A stretch of 64,000 nt of DNA from Antennarius striatus (Eukaryota; Chordata; Actinopteri; Lophiiformes; Antennariidae): the NCBI RefSeq assembly GCF_040054535.1, contig NC_090791.1, positions 16,968,827-17,032,826 of the forward strand, read 5' to 3'. The notes under the pieces are model-generated. The model worked only from the letters and a program-made list of their open reading frames with translations, ran no database searches and was not told the origin of the DNA. A program made the position numbers and the translations under genes. The first letter of the stretch is position 1. The number at the start of each line of letters is the position of its first letter. This document shows positions 10,561-63,475 of the stretch, piece by piece.

Positions 10561-11710
10561 GAGAAGATGGTAGAGTGAAAAATGGAGACTGCTAGTTGGA
10601 CGTTTACTACAAGCTGGGAAAGTTGGACATTGTTATTTACTTAGTTTATCATCAGTGATACGTTCCAGCCAACACTGATGTTTCCTTGACTATAGCAGAG
10701 GTGGTAGGTCCCCTCTGAGCCCCCAGTCTGACTCAGAAGTGGAAGGAAATCTGACTGGGTTTCCCCATTGGAAGTGTGCTGCCCTCTGTGACATCATCAA
10801 CGGAACATCTGTGTTGGTTGTTAATCCCAATCAGATTCCTCATGATAACACAAAAAAAAAACATACACAACATGTCTGTGTAGGTTCTCACTTATCCAAA
10901 GCTGTTTAAATCAATCCACTGGACTTTAAGTTCAGAACTGAAGAAGCTTCTTGGATGAGAGGTGAAACGTCTTCAACCAGCTTTGGATATCATACACAAC
11001 ATCAAGTGCAGTTCATATAAAACACACCAGCAGCACTAGTATTAAATTTTTACACTGTCCTGCAGGGGGAGGTGAGTGTCAAATCATCTGTTTTTGTCTG
11101 GAAATATTTTATTTGTATAGCTATTCATTTACAAGCACACCACATGCATCAAAAGGGAGACCTCAGAGCTTTCTGTCTTCTGACATACAACAGACACACG
11201 TATCGATGTTCGTATTCACCAGACGTTCAAAGTAAAATCTCATTCAGACACAAGAACAAAAGAACCACAAAGAGTACAAATATGCAACTAAATACATTTT
11301 ACATGGAAAATTTAAATTAGACTCACAGTTTGGAAGAAGAGTTGTCATGGGTAAAGAAGACGAAAACATGAGAATAAATCAAGAAAATAAGGTATGCACA
11401 ACACAAAAGAAGTTTAGTGGCCAAATAGATATTAATTACATAAATACACATTAACATTACTACAGTCAACTGGGATCATTTCAACTTTGAAACAAGAACA
11501 TTGATTACATGAAAGGCAGTGCAGCTCACCAAAGTAAAAACAGCCAGTTATTAAAGGAGAAATCCATCACTTGTACACTTTTCAATTCATAAATAGGCCG
11601 ACTCAGCCTGGGAGACCAGCAGGTTGTGCTGTCACAGACCTTGAAGAAACATCTTGGTGATGTCATCAGGTAATTTAAATTATTTCAGATTTGAATGTCA
11701 AGACATTCAA
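10561..11710. other. intergenic, with one common fish repeat at 10880-10985
   Basis: GGATGAGAGGTGAAACGTCTTC at 10955-10978 with GTAGGTTCTCA at 10881 is a widespread fish repeat motif. I cannot assign a family. Nothing else recognised. Confidence 0.4.
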
Positions 11711-11947
11711 TAAACACGTAATGCTTTAAGATGGAAAAACTAACTGATCATTACAAAACTAAACTGCGTAAAAAATTCCTATTAATCAATTAAATTTATT
11801 AAAGTGAACTTTTAATATATTAATTCTTGAGTCATTCATATATTAAAAGTTCACTTTAATAAATTTAATTGATTAATAGGAATTTTTTACGCAGTTTAGT
11901 TTTGTAATGATCAGTTAGTTTTTCCATCTTAAAGCATTACGTGTTTA
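11711..11947. repeat. 110-bp perfect inverted repeat (palindrome) with 17-bp spacer
   Basis: Bases 11711-11820 are the exact reverse complement of 11838-11947 with no mismatch I can find. The spacer is 11821-11837. One more base pair extends it (11710/11948), then similarity ends. The arms are unique-looking AT-rich sequence without TIR or transposase motifs. It lies 102 bases past the synaptotagmin stop and contains an AATAAA on each strand. Confidence 0.95.
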
Positions 11948-12048
11948 TACTTCTACTTATACTAGTCATTCATGGAGTGTTGGGGTTTTGGCAGTGGACA
12001 GGTTGAGTCTATATATATGATGGTGCATTCACTTGTGTGTGAGTTGGT

Positions 12049-17347
<5,299 letters not shown>

Positions 17348-21944: not shown

Positions 21945-22700
21945 AGATGAAGTCATGTGAGAGATGCACAAATGTTTATTAAGATTAAACAGATCAGAAA
22001 TATTTTGTCACAATTGTTGAAAACACCACACAGGTAGAAGCTCTCAGGAACCTAGATGATCCTCACGTGACACCAGAAAGAGCCCCAACACAACATGAGC
22101 ATTTCCAACCTCAGACTGAACAGATTGGATAGAGAAGGATTGATTGACAGCTGGACGAGAAGCAGGCTCAGAATTTAAATTATGTTTTGCCACATTTACA
22201 CTTGGAGTTAGCTCTTGCCTCCCAGGGAATGCTTGTCAAATAAGTATTCAGCCATCTTGTTGTTGGGGGCGTCCATACGTCTGAGGTTGGTGATGTAGTC
22301 TCCCAGCTTCTTGATGGCCTCCACCGGCTCATTCAGGTAGTGGGTTTCCAGGAAGTCACACAGCTGAGGATAACAATATTGGTTTGGTTGGTAAGCATGA
22401 TTTAAGGTCACGCTCGGACCACATTTCAAAATCAGAGGACTTATGTCAGGATCCTGGTGTTCAGTAGCTAATTTGTGGAGCTCCAACACAACCTGATGTT
22501 CTTCTCCAGCTGCAGGGCATTCTGCATGGCTTCCAGCCCGCTCCCCCACTCTTGTCTCGTTGGCTTCTACATGTAACCCCCCACCCTCACCCCACAAGAC
22601 TGATTACTCATGGCAACAAAAGTGTGACTCAGTAGCACTCTGGTCAACCATCACTTCACCTTAGAACTAAACATTAGCTCTGATATCTGATGAGAAGAAA
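21945..22700. repeat. segmental duplication, copy A (ferritin 3' half)
   Basis: This block aligns over about 750 bases with 26080-26865: the 3' UTR, exon 4, intron 3, exon 3 and part of intron 2 of ferritin. Similarity stops near 22700, immediately before a MITE fragment. Divergence is clear but moderate, so the duplication is not recent. Confidence 0.8.
22208..22566 (-). pseudogene. truncated ferritin M pseudogene (exons 3-4 only)
   Basis: This is a diverged copy of exons 3 and 4 of the ferritin gene at 26.4-27.8 kb, with intron 3 and parts of intron 2 and the 3' flank retained, so it is a DNA duplication and not a retrocopy. Exon 4 (22208-22363) is open to the stop but changes the ferroxidase Gln to Pro (NEPVEA instead of NEQVEA). 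Exon 3 (22445-22566) has a 4-nt deletion that breaks the frame. Its donor GT has become AT. Exons 1 and 2, the start codon and the IRE are absent. It cannot make ferritin; transcription is unknown. Confidence 0.88.
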
Positions 22701-26079: not shown

Positions 26080-27795
<1,716 letters not shown>

Positions 27796-27932
27796 TTTAG
27801 CTGGCGGTTCGTACGCTTTTCTTAACAAAAGAAGTAGAAAAATAAAGCTTTATTTTTGGCAAAATTAAATATTTTCTGAGTCTGGAAGGCAAACGAGTAC
27901 GGAAAAAAAAACCTACAGGGACGAAAGGTGAA

Positions 27933-27962
27933 GTTCCGTTCAAACACTGTTGAAGCAAGAAC
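27933..27962 (-). promoter_or_regulatory. iron-responsive element (IRE) in the ferritin 5' UTR
   Basis: On the minus strand the leader contains GCTTCAACAGTGTTTGAACG. This gives the CAGUGU loop, a bulged C five bases upstream of the loop, and paired arms (UUCAA/UUGAA plus the flanking GUUC/GAAC). It lies about 138 bases upstream of the ATG. It is known in ferritin mRNAs to bind IRP1/IRP2 and block translation when iron is low. Confidence 0.95.
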
Positions 27963-28005
27963 TCCCGAAAATCTTCCCGATGAGAAGAATCAGGGAGACT
28001 CGGTG

Positions 28006-31029: not shown

Positions 31030-32225
31030 CTATAAGGGAGCTGAATAACTTTGTCTCATACAGCGAGTGCAGAATTTTTAGGCAAGTTGTATTTTTGAAG
31101 ATTAATTTTACTATTGAACATCAACCATGTTCTTAATGGACCCAAAATACTCATTAATACTGGAGCTTTTTTAGTTTTAGCCATTTTAGGGGGATATCTG
31201 TGTGTGCAGGTGACTTGACAGGCTTTAAAAAGTCAAAAATAGCGAGATATCTTGCAGACGGATGCAGCACTCTTAAAATTGCCAAGCTTCTGAACCGTGA
31301 TCATCGAACAATCAAGCGTTTCATTAAATATAGTCAACAGGGTCGCAAGAAGTGTGTGGAAAACCAAGGCACAAAATAGCTGCCCATAAACTGAGAAAAA
31401 TGTGCAGCTGCCATGATGCCACTTGCCACCAGTTTTTCCATATTTAAGAGCTGCAACATCACTGGAGTGTCCAAAAGCACAAGGTGTGTAATACTCAGAG
31501 ACATGGCCGAGGTAAGAAAGGCTGAAGAACGACCACCACTGAACAAGACACACAAGCTGAAATGTCAAGACTGTGGGCCAAGAAATATTCAAGACTGATT
31601 TTTCTAAGGTTTTATGGACTGATGAAATGAGAGTGAGTCTTGATGGGTGAGATGGATGGGCCTGTGGCTGGATCAGTAAAGGGCAGAGAGCTCCAGTCCG
31701 ACCCAGACACCAGCAAGGTGGAGGTGGGGTACTGGTATGGGCTGGTATTATCACAGATGAGCTTGTGGGACCATTTCGGGTTGAGGATGGAGTCAAGCTC
31801 AACTCCCAGTCCTACTGCCAGTTTCTGGGAGACACCTTCTTCAGGTGGTACAGGAAGAAGTCCGCATCCTTCAAGAAAAACATGATTTTCATGCAGCACA
31901 ATACTCCATCACACGCATCCAAGTACTCCACAGTGTGGCTGGCAAGACAGGGTCTAAAAGAAGAAAAACTAAGGACATTGCCTCCTTGTTCACCTGATCT
32001 TAACCCCATAGAGAACCTGTGGTCCCTCATCAAATGTGAGATTTACAAGGAGTGAAAACAGTACACCTCTCTGAACAGTGTCTGGGAGGCTGTGGTTGCT
32101 GCTGCACACAAGGTTGATCATGAACAGATCATGACTATGATCCACCTTCTTGAGCTGAGGGCATGCCAAGAGCATCTTGTTCAGGTCCAGTCAGTGTTAC
32201 AATATTTACATTCTGAGGTCAAGAT
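31030..32225 (+). mobile_element. Tc1/mariner-family transposon with dead transposase
   Basis: Pieces of a DDE transposase appear in order: the HTH region KIAKLLNRDHRTIKRFI, then KSTRCVILRDMAEV, then VEVGYWYG...LVGPFRVEDGVKL, the FMQHNTPSHASK catalytic area (HN where HD is expected) and [15 protein letters not shown]. At least three frameshifts and several stops separate them. The leader contains ATTGAACATCAACCATGTTCT. Not functional. Confidence 0.85.
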
Positions 32226-43255: not shown

Positions 43256-57475
<14,220 letters not shown>

Positions 57476-58246: not shown

Positions 58247-58595
58247 AAGTAATCCCTTGTTACTCACGGTTAATGCGTTCCAGGAACACCCGTGAAAAAC
58301 GAAATTCCACCGTTATAGCGATGAACTATTTATTATTGACAGTAATTTAAACATTCATGAACCCTCCCCATACTGATATTAAACCACCTTCTATCTGTAT
58401 TACCTTTCCTCACACTCTGATAGACTGTTTGAAGCACTTTTGTGTCTCACGGAAGTCCGAGACTCGCGGAACGGAGCGTACTTCCAGATGCTATCAGCCA
58501 ATAGAATGCGTGTACGATATCACATGACTGCCTACCAGAAATCCTAGATGAAGTGAAGTCGCGAGTTTTAATGCGTGAGTGCGCGAGGGTGCACT
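58247..58595 (+). mobile_element. full-length TA-flanked MITE
   Basis: CAGTAATCCC-type start (here AGTAATCCCTTGTTACTC) with GGTTAATGCGTTCCAGGA, and an end GAGGGTGCACTG before TA. Two other copies (7023, 24185) and one fragment (22723) lie in the window. Confidence 0.8.
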
Positions 58596-58599
58596 GTAT

Positions 58600-63152: not shown

Positions 63153-63283
<131 letters not shown>

Positions 63284-63376
63284 TAGGGTAGTTGCATAAG
63301 AAAGAGAGAGGGAAATAGAAATTGGAACTGTGATGAGCCACTTCCGTTTCTTTCTGTTTCCTCTACACACCAATAC

Positions 63377-63391
63377 ATACACACACACGCA

Positions 63392-63475
<84 letters not shown>
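63377..63475. repeat. (AC)n array, right arm of a facing pair
   Basis: About 50 AC units with an impure ACGCACGCGC start. Confidence 0.99.

Follow-up and report, generated by a model that had tools for sequence, protein, structure and literature searches.

A long perfect palindrome beside a synaptotagmin gene of Antennarius striatus, most likely a template-switch scar

Close to the 3' end of a synaptotagmin gene, the window that we have analyzed (a single stretch of 64 kb from the genome of Antennarius striatus) contains a long palindrome. How did it arise: as a transposon, as an older palindrome kept perfect, as a local inverted copy, or as an error of the assembly? Its presence in the assembly is confirmed, and this is the one assembly from which it is known. 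We consider that it is most likely the scar of a long template switch, an event of a known kind.

Structure and setting of the palindrome

The palindrome has two exact arms of 111 bp, located at 11710–11820 (plus strand) and 11838–11948 (minus strand, the left arm in inverted copy). They are reverse complements, identical at 111/111 positions, and a 17-nt spacer (11821–11837) separates them, for a total length of 239 bp. The original prediction was right about the perfection of the arms and about the spacer; the arm length of 110 bp which it gave is one short. Three extra inner pairs, 11822–11824 with 11834–11836, extend the arms to 115 bp with one mismatch and leave a 9-nt loop (11825–11833). 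Pairing ends sharply outside both arms: None of the next seven outward positions pair, and the left and right flanks are unlike and have no mirror symmetry. The termini of the palindrome read ATA...TAT. Its arms have 21.6% GC, compared to 36% and 40% in the flanks, and 111-bp positions with at most 22% GC represent 0.3% of the window. A small near-palindrome of 20 bp (11691–11710, with 9-bp arms and a 2-nt centre) abuts the left arm. It is not exceptional by itself, because the 64-kb window has 17 sites with exact 9-bp arms and a loop of up to 4 nt.

The abundance of such structures was estimated in 264 kb of the same genome: the window and twenty 10-kb stretches, taken at fixed, not random, places on ten contigs, two stretches which duplicated the palindrome region being excluded. 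Exact palindromes with arms of at least 14 bp and spacers of up to 150 nt were counted. This census contains 10 palindromes: the present one, with its 111-bp arm, followed by arms of 18, 17, 16 bp and smaller. Since the next longest exact arm, microsatellites aside, is only 18 bp in 264 kb, the palindrome is not a chance occurrence. The script removed low-complexity arms, so microsatellites are not counted, including a longer, imperfect inverted repeat of 150 nt and 84% identity (63156–63305/63349–63498), formed by facing TG/AC microsatellites. In fact, the long TG and AC arrays found there (63155–63282 and 63375–63475) face each other as another large inverted repeat.

The last coding exon of the synaptotagmin gene (12049–12258, minus strand) encodes the end of the C2B domain, with a TAA stop at 12049–12051 and a splice edge placed by eye near 12258. 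Its best PDB match is synaptotagmin-1 (E 1.2e-30), and its Pfam C2 score is 20.7 bits, below the cut-off of 22. Another exon, 14610–14882, matches Pfam C2 at 71.4 bits, and its best matches are also synaptotagmins. The outer end of the palindrome is found 100 nt beyond the TAA on the minus strand, a distance previously given as 102. The palindrome probably belongs to the 3' UTR of this gene or to the region downstream of it.

We should also note other features of the window. An intron of the synaptotagmin gene contains a Tc1-like remnant (12428–13713), whose inverted ends, 12428–12607 and 13554–13713, are 71% identical, with a DDE_3 match at 13190–13603. A second Tc1-like DDE_3 transposase fragment is found at 31651–32052, and an open frame of 384 codons at 52359–53510 encodes a reverse-transcriptase domain (RVT_1); we take this frame to be LINE-like. 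An iron response element (27930–27965, minus strand; Rfam IRE_I, 52.4 bits) lies just upstream of an open frame, 27520–27849, which is ferritin-like by eye. A direct repeat with 81% identity, 21970–22704/26116–26860, overlaps the open frame 22208–22603, also ferritin-like by eye; this frame, read as one piece, has no Pfam match. The direct repeat is possibly a tandem gene duplication.

Copy number and the transposon question

The arms had been described as unlike any known transposon, a description which many copies in the same genome would contradict. In the 548-Mb genome (42 contigs; a teleost, judging by gene content), a 237-bp query covering the palindrome finds one place, on both strands, and a single 111-bp arm, searched at E up to 10, matches the two arms only. 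The description therefore stands. Inside the window, matches other than the two arms do not exceed 15 bp. For the left flank, too, a search with 310 bp finds a single genomic place, contiguous with the palindrome.

This genome search skips very common words and scores the best candidates only; pattern searches agree with it. An outer-end pattern of 23 nt, with up to 3 mismatches, has two matches, both of them arms, and none for its reversed control. A mid-arm pattern, also with up to 3 mismatches, has six (two for its reversed control): the two arms and four places elsewhere with 3 mismatches each. These four look like chance matches, because they align with the arm over at most 31 bp. As a control we have used another repeat of the window, 58254–58599, with a size of 346 bp (longer than the arm, and unmatched in AT content), which gives 5106 first-look candidates genome-wide. 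This repeat is dispersed: Among the best 40 of the 5106 candidates scored, 39 are other places, with 83–86% identity. With one locus in 548 Mb at the sensitivity of these searches, against 5106 candidates for the control repeat, a multicopy MITE or foldback transposon has been rejected. Among phage and viral collections, 12 records are found with E about 0.9, and a 22-nt end pattern has no exact matches in viral_contigs; both results are what a fish window should give.

A different case would be a lone palindromic MITE-like insertion, for example with a TA or AT target duplication, from a family with no other members, or very few, in this genome. The low GC content of the arms relative to the flanks would agree with such an insertion, and with the terminal ATA...TAT a 2-bp target duplication could be TA or AT. 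Nevertheless, these dinucleotides carry no information at the ends of a palindrome, because they are self-complementary, and at the positions scanned the exact direct repeats that bracket the palindrome do not exceed 6 bp. The best bracketing near-match, AGACATTCA/AGTCATTCA, coincides at 8/9 positions and would leave 15 unpaired nucleotides, on one side only. The single locus, compared to the many candidates for the control repeat, also counts against a lone insertion, which we regard as unlikely. A hAT-like 8-bp duplication, GACATTCA/GTCATTCA, was also considered and dropped, as it requires about 15 extra nt on one side of the palindrome. Palindromic fish MITEs, such as Angel, are likewise short AT-rich hairpins; the present palindrome differs from them in its single genomic locus and in having no diagnostic target duplication.

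Origin of the palindrome

A local inverted copy is the simplest account of the palindrome, because a multicopy transposon is not supported and the flanks are not mirrored. We think it probable that the palindrome is a single-copy local inverted duplication, generated by template switching or snap-back synthesis. During replication or repair of an AT-rich stretch, the new strand would fold back or switch template near the present loop; about 111–115 nt of adjoining sequence would then be copied in reverse, and the polymerizing strand would afterwards return to its template. One of the arms would be original and the other its inverted copy, with different flanks on the two sides, and the product would be a passive hairpin-forming sequence. 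Here we infer the switching event and the identity of the original arm, as well as the age of the palindrome and its transcription. A quasi-stem of 3 pairs with a 9-nt loop is found at the inner edge of the arms, and it could prime snap-back synthesis.

Short-range template-switch mutations, as described by Walker et al. 2021 (PMC7954356) and Monttinen and Loytynoja 2022 (PMC8794818), share with our palindrome a local inverted copy and a perfect stem. One such event can yield perfect stems (PMC8794818), and the published sites are enriched in AT-rich sequence (PMC7954356), a setting which is found here as well. The exact reverse-complement source expected of a template switch lies nearby, coinciding at all 111 positions across the 17-nt spacer. 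In great apes the inverted copy has a median of 12 and a maximum of 128 nt (PMC7954356). The copy of 111 nt proposed here is within this maximum; this is about nine times the median, far above it and near the top of the great-ape size range, and membership in this class is putative. Searches of one open-access library list no paper that presents this case in its title or at the start of its abstract.

The return of the strand to its template is less clear. A 10-nt word, AGTCATTCAT, crosses the joint between spacer and right arm (11830–11839, plus strand) and appears again in the right flank (11964–11973, plus strand), 15 nt past the right arm; this link between joint and flank speaks for the inverted copy. 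The chance of finding this direct repeat, from 20,000 random placements in the window, is 0.0025 for the right flank and 0.0096 for any flank and orientation, in a test devised after the fact. By eye, no source was identified for the 15 nt that separate the second copy from the right arm, so a reconstruction of the template switch with a defined return point failed. Inspection by eye also reveals no clear microhomology at the return joint. Foldback inversions can result, too, when a break next to a hairpin is repaired (PMC8755829). Such foldback repair would leave the same structure as replication switching.

Since the arms are perfect, their sequence implies that the palindrome would be fairly recent, in origin or in correction. 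With 0 differences over 111 positions, the 95% age bound is about 1.7–6.8 million years, assuming that each arm changes at 8e-9 to 2e-9 per site per year and that the arms do not correct each other. The original prediction spoke of a very recent event: Recency or correction is upheld, "very" is loosely put in view of this bound. Gene conversion between the arms, or quasi-palindrome correction, might also have maintained or perfected an older, imperfect palindrome; such correction is a described process (PMC8604942, PMC8794818) and would likewise yield perfect arms. The window sequence favours neither this possibility nor a single event, but a single event is simpler than a homogenization of every one of the 111 positions, and we regard an older palindrome as improbable.

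The palindrome resembles the palindromic AT-rich repeats (PATRR), near-perfect AT-rich palindromes with the potential to form cruciforms (PMC4940405). PATRR are over 90% AT and have no spacer, while our arms are 78% AT and are separated by a 17-nt spacer or a 9-nt loop. Recurrent translocation breakpoints are a further trait of PATRR. The predicted DNA fold of the present palindrome has an energy of -123.7, versus -20.0 for 200 dinucleotide shuffles (z -32), and by analogy with PATRR a cruciform and local DNA instability are plausible at this locus.

The synaptotagmin transcript

It had been proposed that a transcript reading through the palindrome would fold into a hairpin, and as a prediction this holds: For a synaptotagmin RNA reading through, the full-length stem is predicted, with a fold of -168.1 kcal/mol compared to -40.5 +/- 4.4 in 200 dinucleotide shuffles (z -29). 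The AATAAA signals announced on both strands are indeed present, at 11709–11714 (straddling the palindrome edge) and 11858–11863 on the plus strand, and at 11795–11800 on the minus strand. The last of these is the sole sense-strand AATAAA within the palindrome; it is found inside the stem, and 65% of the next 54 nt are T+G. Beyond the palindrome, the next sense-strand AATAAA in the region scanned is at 11108–11113. Three ATTAAA are also present on the sense strand inside the palindrome. The idea of an AATAAA in each arm acting on 3' end choice is inaccurate: The synaptotagmin transcript would meet one, in the second half of the palindrome. If this signal is used, with cleavage assumed near 11780, a stem of about 44 bp is left, as computed.

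These features raise the possibility that the synaptotagmin 3' UTR contains a double-stranded RNA element with a function, which might be a substrate for ADAR, Dicer or Staufen or might control the 3' end. This concerns the use of the palindrome and overlaps with the different views on its origin. The predicted hairpin is very stable, and the AATAAA of the sense strand, placed in the second half and followed by T+G-rich sequence, could give two 3' ends, one of them with the 44-bp stem. Against it, the sequence is single-copy and looks young, and there is no match to Rfam families at the palindrome; the only Rfam match in the window is the iron response element, found elsewhere. Roles in editing, in small RNA production (ADAR, Dicer) and in 3' end formation would be an inference from the predicted fold, and we find a functional element of this kind unlikely. 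A more specific proposal is that one long template switch put a near-perfect stem of 115 bp into a synaptic gene's 3' UTR, with a poly(A) signal in its second half, so that the choice of 3' end would set a double-stranded RNA stem of 111–115 bp or of roughly 44 bp. This is quite improbable as a whole; if true, it would be a natural, datable, one-step origin of a double-stranded RNA regulatory element.

The weakest explanation is an artefact. A read foldback normally mirrors the flank too. Amplification, cloning and sequencing are all difficult for long palindromes (PMC4057610), and ours comes from a single assembly, but the mirror symmetry ends abruptly on either side, the left flank has its one place contiguous with the palindrome and the right side continues into the synaptotagmin exon. 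The simple assembly foldback suggested at first is disfavoured because the flanks are unlike, and we judge a chimeric foldback of assembly or library to be very unlikely.

Long perfect hairpins are readily dismissed as transposons. Found at a single locus and between flanks that differ, the present palindrome offers a tractable case of long inverted copying in the course of replication or repair, and of the way in which an RNA hairpin could originate from a single event.
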